A stretch of DNA of 33,244 nt, taken from positions 1 through 33,244 of the forward strand of contig PLRX01000106.1 in assembly GCA_003164095.1 (NCBI GenBank), written 5' to 3'. Numbering within the stretch: the first letter of the stretch is position 1; every line of letters begins with the position of its first letter. Under the pieces are notes generated by a model. It was not told the DNA's origin and did not search any database. It was given only the letters and a program-made list of their open reading frames with translations. A program made the position numbers and the translations under genes. The DNA is from Acidimicrobiaceae bacterium. Its GTDB lineage: Bacteria; Actinomycetota; Acidimicrobiia; Acidimicrobiales; RAAP-2. Positions 22,365 to 33,183 of this stretch are shown piece after piece.

Positions 22365-23924
22365 GTGAGCAGTGGGGGCCGGTCGAACGGTCTGATCCTG
22401 GCGGCGATGATCTTCGCCGTCTCTATGACCTTCATCGACCAGACGATCGTCTCCATCGCCGTGCCGGAGATCCAGCAGGAGCTCGGCCTGAGTGCCACCG
22501 GCGTGCAGTGGGCGGTCAACGCCTACCTGCTGTCGCTGGCCGCATTCTTCGCTTACGGCGGACGCCTGGCGGACACCGTCGGGCACCGCAAGGTGACCGT
22601 CATCGGCGTGGTGGTCTTCGCGCTGGCGTCGACGATGTGCGGGCTCACGCCCAAGGGGAGTTTGGCGGAGGCCTGGATCGTGACGTTCCGCGTCGTGCAG
22701 GGATTCGGCGGCGCGCTGCTGTTCCCGGCGGCGCTGGCCATCGTGGTCCAGACGTTCCCGCTGCGTGAGCGGGGCAAGGCGCTCGCCATGTTCTTCGGCA
22801 TCGCCGGCGGCCTGACGGCCATCGGACCGCTGCTGGGCGGCTACCTCACCCAGTGGACGTGGCGGGCGATCTTCTGGGTCAACATCCCCGTGGCCGTCGT
22901 CGCGCTGGTGCTGATCGCCATCTCGCGCCCGACCACCGTCCACCACCCGGCCCGGATGGACTATCGGGGCCTGGCCCTCATCGTGGCCGGCGTCGGGCTC
23001 AGCGTCTTCGGGTTCCAGCAGGCGTCGACCTGGGGCTGGGGGAACCCCGCCATCGGCCTCTGTATCGCCGCTGGCGTCCTCTTCCTCGTCGCCTTCGTCC
23101 TGGTCGAGCTGCGTACCGGGTCGCCGTTGATGCAGGTCCGCATCTTCCGCATTCGTCCGTTCCTGGTCGAGAACCTGGTGCTCGGCATCGCCATGCTGGC
23201 GTTCGTGCCCGTCTTCTTCTTCGCCTCCGAGTACGCCCAGGTGTCGCTGGGCAAGTCGGCATCGGAGGCCGGGCTGTTCCTGCTCACGTTCTTCGCCGGG
23301 TTCGTGGTGGCGGCCCAGATCGGCGGTCGGCTGCTCGACCGGGTCGGGGCCAAGCTGCCCGTGGTGCTGGGCTGCGCGCTCTCCGCCGTCGGCTTCGTGC
23401 TGTGGGCGGGCAAGGTCACGACGCTGAGTTTCTCCGCCCAGCAGTGGTACGTGGTGGTGGCCGGGGCCGGCATGGGCTTCATGCTGGGGCCGGCCAGTAC
23501 CGACGCCGTCAACCGTGCCTCCAAGCTCTCCTACGGCGAGGCGACGGGGATCACCCAGACGGTGCGCAACTACGCGGCCAGCCTGGGCCTGGCCATCCTC
23601 GGCACACTGCTCGTCACTGAGATGCGGTCCCATCTCACCACTTCACTGGTGTCGATGGGCGTTCCCCACGGCACGGCGGTCGCCGACGCGGCCCGCCTGG
23701 CCGAGGGTCGGTCGGCGAACATCACCACACACGGCTCGGCCATCCCGCACTTCTTCGAACTCGACTTCGCCTCTGCCACCCGCAGCGTGCTGTGGACCAT
23801 GGCCCTCGTGATGGCGGTGGCGGCGGTGGTCGGTGCCGTCGGCCTCACCCGGGGACGCCAGGAGGAGGGTGACGGCGTGGACTGGGACGGTGACACGCTC
23901 GACGACGCACCGGCCGCCCTGTGA
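22365..23924 (+). CDS. MFS drug exporter, DHA2-type
   Basis: A major-facilitator exporter of about 519 residues with roughly 14 membrane segments, as in the DHA2 (EmrB/QacA) proton antiporters. The first helix carries SMTFIDQTIVSIAVPEIQQEL (motif D1 region), helix 2-3 loop has GGRLADTVGHRKV (motif A) and helix 5 has GGLTAIGPLLGG (motif C), all typical. Substrate cannot be told. GTG 22365 was chosen because GGGGGAGG (22348-22355) lies nine bases upstream; GTG 22362 is equally possible. It lies between nusB and pyrR, a place with no exporter in the usual actinobacterial order, and has its own strong ribosome site, so it may be an insertion. No TetR or MarR gene is adjacent. Confidence 0.92.
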   Translation: MSSGGRSNGLILAAMIFAVSMTFIDQTIVSIAVPEIQQELGLSATGVQWAVNAYLLSLAAFFAYGGRLADTVGHRKVTVIGVVVFALASTMCGLTPKGSLAEAWIVTFRVVQGFGGALLFPAALAIVVQTFPLRERGKALAMFFGIAGGLTAIGPLLGGYLTQWTWRAIFWVNIPVAVVALVLIAISRPTTVHHPARMDYRGLALIVAGVGLSVFGFQQASTWGWGNPAIGLCIAAGVLFLVAFVLVELRTGSPLMQVRIFRIRPFLVENLVLGIAMLAFVPVFFFASEYAQVSLGKSASEAGLFLLTFFAGFVVAAQIGGRLLDRVGAKLPVVLGCALSAVGFVLWAGKVTTLSFSAQQWYVVVAGAGMGFMLGPASTDAVNRASKLSYGEATGITQTVRNYAASLGLAILGTLLVTEMRSHLTTSLVSMGVPHGTAVADAARLAEGRSANITTHGSAIPHFFELDFASATRSVLWTMALVMAVAAVVGAVGLTRGRQEEGDGVDWDGDTLDDAPAAL

Positions 23925-23981
23925 GCGTCCCGGCCCCTCCGGTGCGGACCACCGGCCCGGACGCCGTCGGGGGCGACGCGG

Positions 23982-23987
23982 TATAGT
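23982..23987 (+). promoter_or_regulatory. Putative -10 of the pyrimidine operon
   Basis: TATAGT is a strong -10. RNA would start near 23993 and leave about 48 bases of leader before GTG 24042, just enough to hold the PyrR-type hairpin. No clear -35 is seen. Confidence 0.6.
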
Positions 23988-23991
23988 CGAG

Positions 23992-24036
23992 TCCTGACCG
24001 TGAAGCGGGTCCCGTGAGGCCCGTACGGACAGGAGG
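23992..24036 (+). promoter_or_regulatory. PyrR-binding leader hairpin overlapping the ribosome site
   Basis: The leader folds into one stem. TCCTG (23992-23996) pairs with CAGGA (24030-24034); an A-A mismatch (23997/24029); CCGT (23998-24001) pairs with ACGG (24025-24028); GAAG faces a single T as an internal bulge; CGGG (24006-24009) pairs with CCCG (24020-24023). The 10-base loop TCCCGTGAGG (24010-24019) fits the PyrR-recognised UCC-N-G-N-GAGG consensus known from Bacillus. The AGGAGG ribosome site of pyrR (24031-24036) is half inside the stem. PyrR with UMP or UTP bound would stabilise it and block translation, as proposed for mycobacteria. There is no downstream attenuator-like U-run. Confidence 0.85.
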
Positions 24037-24041
24037 ATCAG

Positions 24042-24611
24042 GTGGCCGAACGAGAGCGCAGTCATACCCGCCCGCGGGGTGCCGTCTTCGTTCCCCGGGT
24101 CCAGGTGATGTCCGCTGACGACGTCCGCCGCGCCATCACCCGCATGGCCCATGAGATCGCCGAGCGCAACCGGGGTCTGCACGACGTCGTCCTGGTCGGC
24201 CTGCAGACCGGCGGCGTGGGCATCGCCCGGCGCCTGGCGGAGACCCTGGCCGACGTGGAGGGCGCCGATGTGCCCGTCGGGACCCTCGATGTCGCCTTCT
24301 ACCGCGATGACATCGGGCTGCGCCCCGTGCTGCCAGAGGCGGCCACCGACATCACCACCGACCTCACCGGCTCGACGGTGGTGCTCGTCGACGACGTGCT
24401 CTTCACCGGTAGGACCATCCGGGCCGCCCTGAACGCACTGGGCGAGTACGGCCGGGCCCAGGTGGTCGAGCTGGCCGTGATGGTCGACCGGGGCCACCGC
24501 GAGCTGCCGATCCGGCCCGACTACGTCGGCAAGAACCTGCCCACCAACCGCGAGGAGATGGTCGACGTCTCCGACGAGGGCGTGTCGCTGGGCGAGCTGG
24601 TGAGCCGGTGA
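24042..24611 (+). CDS. pyrR: Bifunctional pyrimidine operon regulator / uracil phosphoribosyltransferase
   Basis: PyrR binds the leader RNA of pyrimidine genes when UMP or UTP is high, and often has weak uracil phosphoribosyltransferase activity. The 189-residue product is a type I PRTase: [20 protein letters not shown] (22-41), [15 protein letters not shown] (51-65), [11 protein letters not shown] (82-92), the PRPP loop [13 protein letters not shown] (113-125) and [11 protein letters not shown]-type dimer region with DYVGKNLPT. All are family hallmarks. GTG 24042 follows AGGAGG with a spacing of five; this ribosome site is within the regulatory hairpin. The stop overlaps the pyrB GTG by four bases. 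First gene of the operon it is expected to control. Confidence 0.96.
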
Positions 24612-25579
24612 GCGGCTTCCCGACCCACCTCCTCAGCATGGACGACCTCGACGCCGCGGCGATCGCGGACGTCCTCCGGGTGACGGACTCCTTCGCCGAG
24701 GTCGGCCGACGGGCCAATCCCAAAGTGCCGACGCTGCGGGGCCGCACGGTGGCCACGCTGTTCTTCGAGGACTCGACCCGCACCCGCATGTCCTTCGAGA
24801 CGGCAGCGAAGCGCATGTCGGCCGACGTGCTCTCCTTCGCCGCCGGGTCGTCGTCGGTCAAGAAGGGCGAGTCGCTGCGTGACACCATCGAGACCATCCA
24901 GGCCATCGGCATGGACGCCGTGATCATCCGGCACAGCTCGTCGGGCGTACCCGCCCGGGTGGCCCAGTGGGTCGACAACTGTGCGGTGGTCAACGCCGGT
25001 GACGGCTGGCACCAGCACCCGACCCAGGCGCTGCTCGACCTCTACACCGTGCGCCAATCGCTCGGCGGCGGCCAGGAGGGGACCGACGCCTTCCGGGGCC
25101 TCCGGGTCACCATCGTGGGCGATATCCGCCACAGCCGGGTGGCCCGCTCGCAGATCACCGCCTACGCGGCGCTCGGCGCCGAGGTCACCCTGGTGGCACC
25201 GGCCACCCTGCTGCCCCCCTCCCTCGAGGGCTGGCCGGTGGCGTCGGTCGGCCACGACCTCGACAGCGTGCTCGAGCGCACCGACGTCATCTCCCTCCTG
25301 CGGCTCCAGGCTGAGCGGGGGAGCGGCGACTACGTGCCGACGATGCGCGAGTACTCGACCGGCTACTCGCTGACCGCACGGCGGGCGCTGCAGCTGCCAC
25401 CCGAGGCGATCATCCTCCACCCGGGCCCGATGGTGCGCGGGGTGGAGATCGCCTCGGAGGTGGCCGAGCTGCCGTCCGCCCGCATCACCGACCAGGTCGG
25501 CAACGGCGTCGCCGTCCGCATGGCCGTCCTCTTCCTGCTCCTCGGTCAGGGCACCCTGGGAGGGGAGCGACATGACTGA
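24608..25579 (+). CDS. pyrB: Aspartate carbamoyltransferase catalytic subunit
   Basis: PyrB joins carbamoyl phosphate and aspartate to carbamoyl aspartate, the first committed step. The 323-residue product has the carbamoyl-phosphate site [15 protein letters not shown] (52-66), the mobile loop [16 protein letters not shown] (about 85-100), the aspartate-side [13 protein letters not shown] (about 136-148), [13 protein letters not shown] (about 168-180) and [11 protein letters not shown] (about 277-287). No pyrI regulatory subunit is present, as usual in actinobacteria. GTG 24608 overlaps pyrR by four bases, and the 3' end overlaps pyrC by eight, so the operon is translationally coupled. Confidence 0.97.
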
Positions 25580-26885
25580 CCGGACGGACACCCCCGAGCT
25601 GGTGGTCCGGGGCGGCATGGTCGTCGACGCCACCGGCTCGCGGCGGGCCGACGTGCGCGTGTCCGGCGGCATGGTGGTGGAGCTGGGCGTGGGTCTGGAG
25701 ACGCCCGCCGGCACCACCGTGCTCGACGCGGGCGGCTGCGTGGTCGCCCCCGGGCTCGTCGACCTCCACACCCACCTGCGCGAGCCGGGTCGTGAGGAGG
25801 CCGAGACCGTGGCCTCCGGCACCCGGGCGGCCGCCCTCGGCGGGTTCACCGCGGTCGTCGCCATGCCCAACACCGACCCCCCGCTCGACTCGGCGGAGTC
25901 GGTGCGCAACGTCTACGCACTGGCCGAGGGCGCCCTGGCCCAGGTGGCGGTGGCCGGTGCCATCACCGTCGGCCGGGCCGGCGAGCGCCTCGCACCCATG
26001 GCCGAGCTGGCCGCCCTCGGGGTCCGGCTGTTCACCGACGACGGCGACGGCGTGCAGTCGGCCGGGCTCATGCGCCGGGCCCTGCAGTACGCCACCGGGC
26101 TCGGGGTCGTGCTCGGCCAGCACTGCGAGGACCGCAGCCTGGCCGCCGGCGGGACCATGCACGAGGGGGACTGGTCGAGTCGCCTCGGCCTCCCCGGCAT
26201 GCCCGCCGAGGCCGAAGAGGTCATGGTGGCCCGAGACATCGCCCTGTCGCGGGCGACGGGCGGGCGGGTGCACTTCCTCCACCTCTCGACGGCGGGCTCC
26301 ATCGACCTCGTGCGCCGGGCCCGGGCCGAGGGTGTGCCCGTCACGGCCGAGGTGGCACCGCACCACTTCACCCTCACCGACGGATGCACCTCCGGCTACG
26401 ACCCCGTCTTCAAGGTCAACCCGCCGCTGCGCCCGCAGGCTGACGTCGACGCCGTCAAGCGGGCGCTGGCCGACGGCACGGCCGACGCCATCGCCACCGA
26501 CCACGCCCCCCACGCGCCGGAGTTGAAGGACCTCCCGTTCGACCAGGCGCCGGCGGGCATGCTGGGCCTGCAGACGGCCCTGGCCCTGGCCGTGACCGAA
26601 CTCGACCTCCCGCTCGAGCGGATCCTGGCACTGCTGAGCTGGCAGCCGGCGGCCATCGCCATGCTCGACCCCGCCCATGGCGGCGCGCAGGGTGGCCCGA
26701 TCGCCGAGGGATCACCCGCCAACCTGGTGGTCGTCGACCCGACGGCCACGTGGAGGGTCGATCCGACCGCCCTCGCCTCGCGCAGCCGCAACACCCCCTA
26801 TGCCGGCAGGACCCTGACGGGTCGGGTCCGGCACACCGTGCTGGCCGGTGAGCCGGTCGTGATCGACGCCGAGGCCCGGCGATGA
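25572..26885 (+). CDS. pyrC: Dihydroorotase, class I
   Basis: DHOase closes carbamoyl aspartate to dihydroorotate at a zinc centre in an amidohydrolase barrel. The 437-residue product has [17 protein letters not shown] (64-80, metal His66 and His68), the Pro-Asn-Thr signature [11 protein letters not shown] (about 97-107), QHCEDRSLA (His ligand), [11 protein letters not shown] (His ligand) and [14 protein letters not shown] (metal Asp). This is the longer class I form, typical next to pyrB. The overlap with pyrB (eight bases) and carA (four bases) indicates coupling. The C-terminus has the standard [15 protein letters not shown]. Confidence 0.96.
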
Positions 26886-28017
26886 ACCACCGCAGCGGAA
26901 GCCTCCGTCGTGAGCCGGCCCTCCTGGTGCTGGCCGACGGCGCGGTGTTCGAGGGAGAGGCCTTCGGCGCGGTGCCCGACGACGGCGTCTCCGTAGGCGA
27001 GGCCGTGTTCAACACGGTGCTGTCGGGCTACCAGGAGGTCATCACCGATCCGTCGTACGCCGGACAGGTCATCGCCTTCACCTATCCCCACATCGGCAAC
27101 TACGGGGTCAACCCGGCCGACGACGAGGCGGCCGCCCCGCACTGCAGCGGCGTCGTCGTGCGCGACCTGGCCGACGCCCCGTCCAACTGGCGGTCCACGG
27201 GTTCGCTCGAGGACTACCTGGTGTCCCACGGGGTCGCCGGGATCACCGGTGTCGACACCCGTCGACTGACCCGGCACCTGCGCGACCACGGCTCGGCCCC
27301 CTGTGCGTTCGGCACCGCCGCCGAGGGCGACCTCCTGGCCGCCGCCCGGTCCGCTCCCCCGACCGACGGGCGCGACCTGGTGTCGACGGTCACGAGGTCG
27401 ACCGTGCTCACGAGGGGGGACGGCCCCTACCGGGTCGTCGCCTACGACTTCGGCATCAAGGAGGCCATGCTGCGCCAGCTCGGCGACCTGGCCACCGTGA
27501 CCGTGGTGCCGGCCGCCACGCCGGCCGACGAGGTGCTCGCGCTGGGGCCCGACGGCATCTTCCTCTCCAACGGCCCCGGCGACCCGGCGGCACTGCCGGG
27601 TGTCATCGCCGAGATCCGCGGTCTCGTCGACCACGGCACCGTCCCGATCTTCGGCATCTGCCTCGGCCACCAGCTCCTGGCTACCGCGTTGGGTGCCACC
27701 ACCTACAAGTTGGCCTTCGGGCACCACGGCGGCAACCACCCGGTCCGGCGTACGTCGACCGGACGGGTCGAGATCACCTCGCAGAACCACAACTACGCGG
27801 TGGCCGCCGACTCGCTGGGGGCGACCGAGGTGACCCATGTCAACCTCAACGACGGGGTCATCGAGGGTCTGGCCAGCACCGAGGTCCCGGCCTTCAGCGT
27901 GCAGTACCACCCCGAGGCCGGTCCCGGCCCCCACGACGCCCGCTACCTGTTCGAGGAGTTCCGGATGCTGATGGATGCCCACGGCGGGCCGAGCGGACGA
28001 GACGGGGGAGCTGCCTG

Positions 28018-28018
<1 letters not shown>
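26882..28018 (+). CDS. carA: Carbamoyl-phosphate synthase small subunit
   Basis: CarA hydrolyses glutamine and channels ammonia to CarB. The 378-residue product has the CPSase N-terminal domain ([37 protein letters not shown] split at 39-62, [15 protein letters not shown] at 121-135) and the class I amidotransferase domain (about 183-365) with the nucleophile Cys260 ([11 protein letters not shown]), His343 and Glu345 ([11 protein letters not shown]). The triad is complete. ATG 26882 overlaps pyrC by four bases; the stop overlaps the carB ATG by one. The operon supplies carbamoyl phosphate for pyrimidines and probably arginine too. Confidence 0.97.
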
Positions 28019-31332
<3,314 letters not shown>

Positions 31333-31336
31333 CCCG

Positions 31337-32347
31337 GTGAGCGGCAGTGCCACGGGCACCGGACGACGCGGCCGGGTGGGCCGGGCCTGGCGGGCCGCCA
31401 CCCGCGGCGACGTGGACCTGTCCGTCCCCGTCGGCTCGCTCACACTGCCCAACCCGGTCATGACCGCGTCCGGCACGGCCGGCCACGCCGACGAGCTCGA
31501 GGCCTACGGACCCCTGGCAGCCCTCGGCGCCGTGGTGGTCAAGTCGCTGTCGGTGGAGCCGTGGCCCGGGAACCCGGCTCCCCGGGTCCACCAGGCCGGT
31601 GCCGGCATGGTCAACAGCGTCGGCCTGCAGGGCCCCGGCATCGAGGCGTGGCTGCGGGACGACCTGCCCCGGTTGGCGGCCGCCGGGGCACGCACGGTGG
31701 TCAGCATCTGGGGGCAACGGGTCGACGACTACTCGGAGGCCGCAGCGCTCCTGTCGGACGTCGAGGGACTGACGGCCATCGAGGTCAACGTCAGCTGCCC
31801 CAACCTCGAGGACCGCCGCCACATGTTCGCCCATTCGCCGACTGCCACGGCCGAAGTCATCGCCGCCGTGGTCGCCAACGGCCCCGACGTGCCCCGCTGG
31901 GCCAAGCTCAGCCCCACCGTGGCCGACCTGGCCGAAGTGGCCGGTGCCGCACTGGCGCACGGTGCCGAGGCGGTGACGCTGGTCAACACGGCGCTGGCCA
32001 TGGTCATCGACCTCGAGAAGCGGGCCCCGGTGCTCGGGTCGGGCCCGGCCGGAGGCGGACTGTCCGGCCCCTCGCTGCACCCGATCGCGGTGCGCGCCGT
32101 CTTCGACGTCCGTGCCGCCCATCCCGACGCCACCATCATCGGTGTGGGCGGGGTGATGTCCGGCCGGGACGCCGTCGAGCTGCTGATGGCCGGCGCCGAC
32201 GCGGTGCAGGTGGGGACGGCCACCTTCCGGGACCCCCGCGCCGCCTGGCGCATCCTCGACGAGCTGGGGGCGTGGTGCGCCGACCATGAGGTCCGGGCCG
32301 TGCGGTCGCTGCGAGGGGTGGCTCAACCGACGAGGAGGATGCCGTGA
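31337..32347 (+). CDS. pyrD: Dihydroorotate dehydrogenase, class 1
   Basis: PyrD oxidises dihydroorotate to orotate with FMN. The 336-residue product has a basic N-terminal extension (1-24) and then the barrel: LPNPVMTASGTAG (38-50), MVNSVGLQGPGIEAW (91-105), AIEVNVSCPNLEDR (147-160) with Cys154 as the class 1 catalytic base, VTLVNTALAMVIDLEK and GVGGVMSGRDAVELLMAGADAVQVGTA for the FMN phosphate. A Cys rather than Ser, and no membrane-binding N-terminus, mark class 1. Class 1B forms need a PyrK Fe-S partner, but none lies in the operon. GTG 31337 is four bases after carB; the stop overlaps the pyrF start by four. Confidence 0.95.
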   Translation: MSGSATGTGRRGRVGRAWRAATRGDVDLSVPVGSLTLPNPVMTASGTAGHADELEAYGPLAALGAVVVKSLSVEPWPGNPAPRVHQAGAGMVNSVGLQGPGIEAWLRDDLPRLAAAGARTVVSIWGQRVDDYSEAAALLSDVEGLTAIEVNVSCPNLEDRRHMFAHSPTATAEVIAAVVANGPDVPRWAKLSPTVADLAEVAGAALAHGAEAVTLVNTALAMVIDLEKRAPVLGSGPAGGGLSGPSLHPIAVRAVFDVRAAHPDATIIGVGGVMSGRDAVELLMAGADAVQVGTATFRDPRAAWRILDELGAWCADHEVRAVRSLRGVAQPTRRMP

Positions 32348-33183
32348 CCGACGGGTTCGCGATGAAGGTGGCGAAGGCGGTGGCCGGCACCGGCCCCATG
32401 TGCGCGGGCATCGACCCGAGCGCCGACCTGCTCGGTGCGTGGGGCCTCCCCGACACGCCTGACGGACTGCGGGCCTTCGGGCTGGCGTGCGTGGAGGCGT
32501 TCGCCGGGGTGGTGCCCGTGGTCAAGCCCCAGGTGGCCTTCTTCGAACGGATGGGGTCGGGCGGGATGGCCGCCCTCGAGGAGGTCCTGGCCGCGGCCCG
32601 CAGCGCCGGGCTGCTGGCCATCGCCGACGCCAAGCGGGGTGACATCGGGTCCACGATGGCGGCGTACGCGTCGGCCTGGCTCGACCCGGCCAGTCCGCTG
32701 GTGGCCGATGCCCTGACGGTCATGCCCTACATGGGCCTCGGCGCCCTGCAGCCCGCACTCGACCTGGCCGCGGCCGGAGGGCGGGGGGTCATCGTGGTGA
32801 CCCGCAGCTCCAACCCCGAAGGGCGGTCGCTGCAGACGGCCGTCACCGCCGCCGGCCCGTCGGTGGAGGACCAGCTCCTGGCCGAGGTGGCCGCCCTCAA
32901 CTCGGGCGGGCTCCCGGTGCCGGGCACCGTCGGCGTGGTCATCGGGGCCACGCTCGAGCCGTCGGCCTTCGACCTGTCCGGCCTCGGGGGTGTGGTCCTG
33001 GCGCCGGGCTTCGGTGTCCAGGGCGGCACGACCGAGACGGTCCGGACCCTGTTCGCCGGGTGCGCCCCGGGGACGGTCCTGCCCAGCGCCTCACGCTCGC
33101 TGCTCTCGACCGGGCCAGATGTCGGCACCCTGCGGGACAGCGCGGCGCTGGAGTGCGAGGCACTGCGCACCGCACTGGGCTGA
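32344..33183 (+). CDS. pyrF: Orotidine 5'-phosphate decarboxylase, type 2
   Basis: PyrF decarboxylates OMP to UMP, the last step. The 279-residue product is the long type 2 form: MCAGIDPSADLLGAWGL (19-35), VVKPQVAFFERMGSGG (59-74), the catalytic LAIADAKRGDIGSTMAAYA (91-109, with Lys97 in DAKRGD) and VLAPGFGVQGG (about 219-229). Length and motifs fit mycobacterial-like enzymes. GTG 32344 overlaps pyrD by four bases. A hairpin follows the stop after seven bases. It is the last operon gene in this window; a downstream gene may continue past the edge. Confidence 0.96.
   Translation: MTDGFAMKVAKAVAGTGPMCAGIDPSADLLGAWGLPDTPDGLRAFGLACVEAFAGVVPVVKPQVAFFERMGSGGMAALEEVLAAARSAGLLAIADAKRGDIGSTMAAYASAWLDPASPLVADALTVMPYMGLGALQPALDLAAAGGRGVIVVTRSSNPEGRSLQTAVTAAGPSVEDQLLAEVAALNSGGLPVPGTVGVVIGATLEPSAFDLSGLGGVVLAPGFGVQGGTTETVRTLFAGCAPGTVLPSASRSLLSTGPDVGTLRDSAALECEALRTALG

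Follow-up and report, generated by a model that had tools for sequence, protein, structure and literature searches.

The question raised by this locus, a pyrR gene with its downstream pyr genes in a window of 33,244 nucleotides (the whole stretch of DNA that was analysed), is whether its very short leader forms a binding site for the PyrR protein, and if so by which means the operon is controlled. The identity of the regulator gene itself is straightforward, since its product matches PyrR proteins in the PDB with E-values down to 4e-51. The genes from pyrR through pyrB, pyrC and carA to carB presumably share one mRNA (Table 1), and two further frames, at 31199-32347 and 32344-33183, resemble pyrD and pyrF by eye.

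Table 1. Leader elements and pyr genes of the window, in window coordinates
Feature	Position	Strand	Basis or remark
-10-like box TATAGT	23982-23987	+	spacing to hairpin core kept across loci
Putative 5' leader of pyrR, some 48 nt	23994-24041	+	inferred from the -10 position and covariation reaching 23994
Outer stem, 5' arm CUG	23994-23996	+	own versus swapped flank test
Lower stem, 5' arm CCGU	23998-24001	+	pairing retained in 77-81 of 81 loci
Purine bulge GAA	24002-24004	+	80 of 81 loci have A at the second place, and 80 of 81 at the third
Upper stem, 5' arm GCGGGUC	24005-24011	+	both-side changes at 5 of 7 pairs
Hexaloop CCGUGA (C-N-G-N-G-A)	24012-24017	+	fixed positions identical in all 81 rows
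Upper stem, 3' arm GGCCCGU	24018-24024	+	covariation, 65-row alignment
Lower stem, 3' arm ACGG	24025-24028	+	65-row alignment
Outer stem, 3' arm CAG, overlaps Shine-Dalgarno	24030-24032	+	own versus swapped flank test
Shine-Dalgarno AGGAGG, 5 nt 5' of start codon	24031-24036	+	sequence
pyrR, GTG start, 189 aa	24042-24611	+	NF003549, 213 bits (cut-off 138); PDB PyrR matches
pyrR codons 8-17, site of the in-gene terminator predicted in relatives	24063-24092	+	in the window a weak hairpin, codons GTC TTC GTT
pyrB, overlaps pyrR stop	24608-25579	+	NF002032, 371 bits
pyrC	25572-26885	+	dihydroorotase models
carA	26882-28018	+	TIGR01368
carB	28018-31332	+	NF003671

The hairpin core extends from 23998 to 24028 and ends 13 nt ahead of the pyrR GTG codon, and in the fold of the window leader its upper stem comprises seven pairs. 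A mismatch between A23997 and A24029 separates the lower stem of the core from the outer stem, the 3' arm of which shares its last two bases with the first two of the Shine-Dalgarno sequence, and TC at 23992-23993 together with GA at 24033-24034 could furthermore add two pairs to this outer stem. The sequence-only reading that first drew attention to the leader had its bases and coordinates right, with TCCCGTGAGG at 24010-24019 flanked by CGGG at 24006-24009 and CCCG at 24020-24023, but what it described as a loop of ten bases folds into a loop of only six, CCGUGA, which is closed by the pairs U24010-G24019 and C24011-G24018.

The ten-base loop pattern by itself is weak and uninformative evidence, as it has 183 matches in the 3.7-Mb genome versus 120 for a reversed control pattern. 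Folding of the 48-nt leader (23994-24041) gives -19.5 kcal/mol against -14.2 ± 2.6 kcal/mol for shuffled sequences, 5 of 200 of which are equally good; a wider fold of 23982-24060 is unexceptional compared with shuffles (z -0.95), and that of 23994-24100 is no better than its shuffles either (z +1.16). The convincing evidence for the hairpin is comparative, resting on aligned leaders. A PyrR search yielded 568 relatives, the best 80 of which were fetched and make up, together with the window, a set of 81 loci; the 80 are titled mostly as Acidimicrobiales, Acidimicrobiaceae or unplaced Actinomycetes MAGs. The hairpin is found at the pyrR start in all 80 fetched loci, although it is one loop base short in L076, and in an ungapped placement the C, G, G and A of the loop are identical in all 81 rows. 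Three of the loci, L047, L048 and L049, are filed under Bifidobacterium breve (two MAGs) or Acidobacteria, and since their pyrR genes and leaders group with those titled Acidimicrobiales, these record names are probably wrong.

For covariation, 65 of the 81 rows were aligned, near-identical rows having been removed and L076 omitted for its loop deletion. Paired cells amount to 86.5% in this alignment as compared with 81.2% after shuffling and at most 45.4% when the arms are slid, and 67 cells with a double change are seen versus 27.2 in shuffled alignments. Changes on both sides occur at five of the seven pairs of the upper stem, and in the lower stem of the core three of the four pairs are invariant, the fourth being CG, UA or UG and hence compensatory. 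The sequence-only reading had named a lack of lower-stem covariation among relatives as the finding that would speak against it; this ground for rejection did not materialise, since the outer extension of the stem does covary, as set out below, although the core pairs hardly vary apart from the one compensatory case. That the leader hairpin is real, as that reading had observed, is thereby confirmed.

The outer stem was assessed by folding the 5' flank of each locus with either its own 3' flank or the 3' flanks of other loci, the core being held fixed. When 4 nt of 5' flank are included, own combinations average -3.75 kcal/mol versus -2.92 kcal/mol for swapped ones (z -5.6, 0 of 1000 shuffles), with 3 nt the effect is smaller (z -2.4), and with 2 nt own and swapped flanks give no signal. 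Eighteen controls in which the flank was slid up- or downstream gave z-values between -1.7 and +2.3. Since these slid controls are flat and own flanks pair better than foreign ones, positions out to about 23994 appear to pair and should thus be transcribed, and the notion that the hairpin pairs directly into the Shine-Dalgarno sequence is supported. The outer pairs nevertheless vary and shift among the loci, the innermost missing in 22 and the outermost in 35 of the 65 rows.

A pattern TAnnnT ends exactly 10 nt ahead of the hairpin core in 58 of the 81 loci and 8-13 nt ahead of it in 79, and a scan of the window with a sigma-70 consensus found no promoter. In the available part of one report, 95% of Mycobacterium tuberculosis transcript starts are purines (PMC4633059). 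The nearest well-placed purine after TATAGT is G23996, the very position from which, according to the sequence-only reading, a mapped start would have undermined the proposed hairpin, whereas the covariation requires transcription to begin no later than 23994. By analogy, the purine rule would favour transcription from G23996, which would leave the outer stem with a single pair. The hairpin appears to be situated at the 5' end of the pyr mRNA or very close to it, the exact start of this mRNA being our inference.

Known PyrR binding loops share a C-N-G-N-G-A hexaloop on a UCC/GG upper stem and an internal bulge. The hexaloop on its UCC/GG stem is present in the window and its relatives (81 of 81 rows, L076 being one base short), and so are the internal bulge and lower stem, in the form of GAA and CCGU/ACGG. 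Bacillus PyrR loops, as represented by RF00515 and by the consensus just given, have the hexaloop, the UCC/GG upper stem and the internal bulge in common with the window, but the window differs in having no antiterminator or terminator and in not being reported by the Rfam model. Indeed RF00515 gives no match to the leader even at E <= 10 and none in the genome at E <= 1, and it exceeds its cut-off in 0 of 60 genomes of the class; the model spans 115 positions versus the 48 nt of the leader. The best Rfam listing for the leader, a Streptococcus sRNA (E 1.3, 15 bits against a threshold of 37), was read as chance.

A covariance model of the element, applied to genomes at E <= 0.01, detects one site in the window's own genome, at 72.3 bits, everything else scoring 21 bits or less. 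The two weak matches in this genome, at 21 and 18 bits, were rejected for want of a C-N-G-N-G-A loop; the 18-bit match adjoins, on its 5' side, a frame that resembles fabD by eye. Among 295 sampled genomes of the class the element is found in 181 and pyrR in 259, and all 181 genomes with the element also carry pyrR, as opposed to none of the 36 genomes lacking pyrR that carries the element. Within the window's order, of which 111 genomes were sampled, 109 of the 110 pyrR-bearing genomes have the element and one genome (G091) has neither; in these counts genomes outside the order were checked by script and those of the order taken from match listings. As to its position, the element stands before pyr genes in 46 of the 47 loci of the order and class that were read, 43 times before pyrR and three times before carA (L122, L129 and L133), L138 being unplaced. 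The sole sampled genome of the order with pyrR and without the element is G226 (L171), where no recognisable PyrR loop is seen in 170 nt and pyrR follows close behind a frame resembling nusB by eye. Another genome of the order, G087, has two PyrR-like matches. In a sample of the entire phylum the model matches in 81 of 396 genomes, 48 of them belonging to the window's class; 20 of the 33 matches in other classes were fetched, and 17 of these have a CCUUUAA or CUUUAA core, L161 and L167 looking spurious.

The claim that the hairpin is of the PyrR type thus draws support from the C-N-G-N-G-A loop, shared by all 81 rows, from the covariation and from the co-occurrence with pyrR. The apparent placement of the hairpin at the extreme 5' end of the mRNA would also suit a simple stabiliser of that end, or a direct sensor of nucleotides, in either case acting with no part played by PyrR, but such roles are highly improbable given that the C-N-G-N-G-A loop is conserved and that not one of the 36 genomes lacking pyrR has the element.

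How PyrR would act on such a hairpin depends on what follows it. In Mycobacterium smegmatis the pyr operon is reportedly subject to PyrR-dependent translational repression, the PyrR hairpin being said to lie near the first pyr ribosome site with no attenuator between hairpin and gene. The window has the same type of anatomy, in that the hairpin abuts and overlaps the first ribosome site and is then followed by no convincing terminator. The sequence-only reading had likewise seen no intrinsic attenuator here, and this holds up, as neither a terminator pattern scan of 23900-24250 nor a strict terminator scan found a match in the window, and a looser scan gave a single weak candidate (dG -9.4, 4 T of 8) no better than synonymous draws. 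Since the window has no convincing terminator, and with the structure, covariation and position of the hairpin and its co-occurrence with pyrR observed as described, PyrR-dependent translational repression of pyrR fits best, and we consider it the best explanation with a probability of roughly 0.78. By analogy with the PyrR of B. subtilis and the system of M. smegmatis, PyrR would bind the hairpin, depend on an effector in doing so, and repress. With an ample supply of pyrimidine nucleotides, PyrR carrying UMP or UTP would accordingly hold the hairpin, and the lower stem and the outer stem beyond it would, together with PyrR itself, cover AGGAGG and deny ribosomes access to the start of pyrR. 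Under a shortage of nucleotides the hairpin could open freely, which would allow pyrR and the downstream genes to be translated. A possible difference from M. smegmatis is that the group to which the window belongs has a lower stem CCGU/ACGG with a GAA bulge, and because of this form of the core the Shine-Dalgarno sequence lies outside it and is reached by the separate, covarying outer stem. The window therefore seems to represent a familiar type of control whose sequence form is distinct, a notion supported by the above, and it would bring PyrR translational repression to a group unreported by the Rfam PyrR model, with covariation backing the sequestering stem.

It is however too simple to regard the locus, as the sequence-only reading did, as a clean example on which to test the actinobacterial mode, since many relatives have a terminator-like signal inside pyrR itself. 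A strict scan for a stem of at least six perfect pairs (at least four of them G-C) followed by a U-tract, covering up to 2.1 kb around the pyrR start, gave 81 sense matches in the 81 loci, and 47 of these fall into one 25-nt bin, 25-49 nt into pyrR, so that a terminator-like signal which a ribosome could gate is seen in 47 of 81 loci, the window not being one of them. The antisense control gave 34 matches with no bin above six. The hairpin and U-tract mostly coincide with pyrR codons 9-18, examples being ACGCCCCCATATGGGGGCGT then TTTTGTTG in L038 and GACGCCCCCCCGCGGGGGCGTC then TTTGTTCC in L018, and a loose motif scan left L058, L186, L227 and L228 unplaced. One might suppose that hairpins of this sort are a trivial product of a Pro-Pro-x-Gly-Gly stretch (CCN CCN...GGN GGN), but this is answered by a null in which synonymous codons were redrawn at each locus's own usage, the 47 loci with a terminator comparing with 13.6 ± 3.1 expected out of 81. 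Codon choice points the same way, valine being encoded by GTT in 73 of 114 codons at the U-tract versus 84 of 1620 further along the gene, and phenylalanine by TTT in 29 of 67 versus 12 of 207. The stem of the strict loci furthermore averages -16.2 kcal/mol versus -9.1 kcal/mol in synonymous draws, and when the same test is moved to eight other positions along pyrR the mean z-values lie between -0.18 and +0.15.

Paired synonymous changes are also seen, for instance ACG CCC CCC...GGG GGC GTC versus ACC CCA CCG...GGT GGG GTC. In a terminator alignment of 39 of the 47 loci (identical rows, L067 and L062 were left out) plus five non-hits chosen for their shared register, the stem has 15 double-change cells versus 2.4 after shuffling in these 44 selected rows; pairs with changes on both sides number 3 versus 1.8 in the same selected rows, a value reached in 113 of 500 shuffles and thus no excess. 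Among further genomes outside the first set a match was obtained in 25 of 39 (38 of the order and one of another order), some of them at 41-64 nt, which brings the combined total with an in-gene terminator to 72 of 120. Sequestration of the Shine-Dalgarno sequence is alike with and without the terminator, the mean pairing being 0.30 in both groups, and the distance from core start to pyrR start is mostly 45-49 nt with a terminator versus 43-44 nt without, in a comparison that ignores kinship. The strict scan also gave 17 terminator-like matches in three bins within pyrB, 1425-1500 nt past the pyrR start, in a conserved stretch of the protein; here 9 were seen versus 14.9 expected under the control in 48 loci, which is no excess, and these matches are probably protein-driven.

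The relatives also bear on attenuation of the Bacillus type, in which terminator and antiterminator are competing structures and PyrR stabilises an anti-antiterminator. The loop and stem are of the same type as in Bacillus, and in the other-class loci L149, L155 and L159 hairpins seem to follow at a distance, as judged by eye, but the window has no terminator either by the strict scan or by the scan of 23900-24250, and in the 47 relatives leader and 5' arm of the terminator vary independently, own combinations giving -14.51 versus -14.49 for swapped ones. The terminator's own two arms, serving as positive control, are clearly coupled (-19.2 versus -16.3), although an antiterminator built from invariant bases only would escape such a test. 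An antiterminator in the relatives is consequently unsupported, there being no coupled variation of leader and terminator, and control of the Bacillus type seems a very poor candidate for the window. With PyrR expected on the hairpin, the terminator lying in translated RNA and no antiterminator coupling, the ribosome is the simplest link between the two. In such relatives a free hairpin would allow a ribosome to load and shield the terminator some 45 nt into the translated RNA, and a hairpin bound by PyrR would keep the ribosome away, so that the uncovered in-gene terminator could fold and stop transcription.

The signal is not confined to the window's order. In other orders of the class 48 loci were placed out of 51 tried, and in 43 of the 48 a pyrR start lies in frame at no more than 25 nt from the hairpin; many of these genes begin with a variable N-terminal extension. 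Strict terminators occur in 23 of these 43 loci versus 2.1 ± 1.4 expected, often in the N-terminal extensions. In L184 there is instead a leader ORF of 17 codons, the end of which overlaps the pyrR start by 4 nt, and the terminator lies inside this leader; L180, L223, L225 and L226 gave no strict terminator match. In another class of the phylum, represented by the best 30 of 78 matches (L229-L258), the same loop type stands before pyrR as in the window, 14 cases being in frame without a leader ORF, 13 being leader-ORF or unresolved forms and three having no hairpin. In the 14 in-frame cases the start codon lies 3-15 nt past the core in 13 and 1 nt past it in one. The core of this class is often CCUUUAA...AAGG followed by A, and the 3' arm of the lower stem therefore overlaps the Shine-Dalgarno sequence itself, unlike in the window. 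Seven of the loci (L232, L234, L237, L243, L254, L256 and L258) have leader ORFs of 21-22 codons that overlap the pyrR start by 4 nt, and six of them fold into a strong hairpin with a U-run at the junction, the script having chosen another T-run in L232.

On a tree of pyrR and pyrB the window belongs to a clade of 22 rows (SH-aLRT 93), and gain and loss of the terminator requires about 11 changes on this tree, in which the branches of L051 and L026 are absurdly long, probably from a bad reading of pyrB. An alternative is that in-gene attenuation gated by the ribosome operates in the window as well, repression there being both translational and transcriptional. Such a terminator is indicated in the relatives (the 47 of 81 loci and 25 of 39 further genomes given above), G199 (L095), which belongs to the window's genus, is positive in the terminator scan, and the window itself retains the rare valine codon GTT where relatives have the U-tract, with a T count of 5 versus 4.0 (p 0.035), in addition to the weak candidate of the loose scan. 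However, the stem of the window, at -6.3 versus a synonymous mean of -7.8 (p 0.73), is no stronger than chance, the 33 loci without a strict match show no excess of stem stability (mean z 0.06), and the terminator is absent in 21 of the 22 rows of the window's clade, all of which makes it unlikely that the window is attenuated in this way. On our reading the lineage of the window has lost the terminator with a residue left behind, on a tree whose root is not fixed, and translational repression seems to be what is left to it.

Taken at class level, we lean somewhat towards the view that these loci contain a ribosome-gated attenuator within the coding sequence of the regulator itself, which would have been gained and lost repeatedly, and of which the window's clade would be a natural knock-out left with translational repression alone. 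The in-gene terminator is a prediction from sequence and from signals of selection. Something similar has reportedly been proposed for Thermus ZO5, where PyrR is said to control a terminator through the translating ribosome and with no antiterminator. This proposal resembles what is suggested for the window's relatives, the window itself having no terminator, and it differs in the site of the terminator, which would be the leader in Thermus ZO5 as opposed to the codons of pyrR in the relatives. Attenuation that depends on translation of a uORF is described for a DUF1127 gene of Sinorhizobium meliloti in the available part of PMC12218461, and termination there depends on ribosome cover of the start of an ORF, just as in the attenuator proposed here; as far as that part goes, it differs in that no RNA-binding regulator takes part, the translated frame is a separate uORF, and the element consists of C-rich codons instead of an intrinsic terminator in a regulator gene. 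A survey of attenuators, according to the available part of PMC2965389, covered intergenic regions and short ORFs, and terminators inside pyrR would thus be beyond its scope. Placement of a terminator in pyrR's own codons looks new, and an open-licence library, which includes few subscription papers, yielded no earlier report either of a terminator inside pyrR or of this group's element. The unexpected terminator of the relatives raises interest beyond the hairpin of the window, since one order offers the same operon with and without a terminator-like signal in pyrR and with otherwise similar anatomy, which matters more than the window alone. A contrast of this kind makes ribosome blocking alone versus the added exposure of a terminator directly testable.

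Finally, the hairpins found before carA deserve mention. Genome G108 (L124/L129) has a second PyrR hairpin before carA by way of an ORF of 24 codons, the stop of which overlaps the carA GTG and which resembles the N-terminus of PyrR by eye. In G019 (L122) a second PyrR hairpin likewise precedes carA by way of an ORF, here of 35 codons and with a stop overlapping the carA ATG, and in G051 (L133) a second PyrR hairpin stands directly 5' of carA. A hairpin at L169 (G267:C17:18596-18641, minus strand) also precedes a carA-like frame and has the lower stem of the element with a loop lacking the PyrR consensus, which suggests that it may be a diverged copy or may have another specificity.
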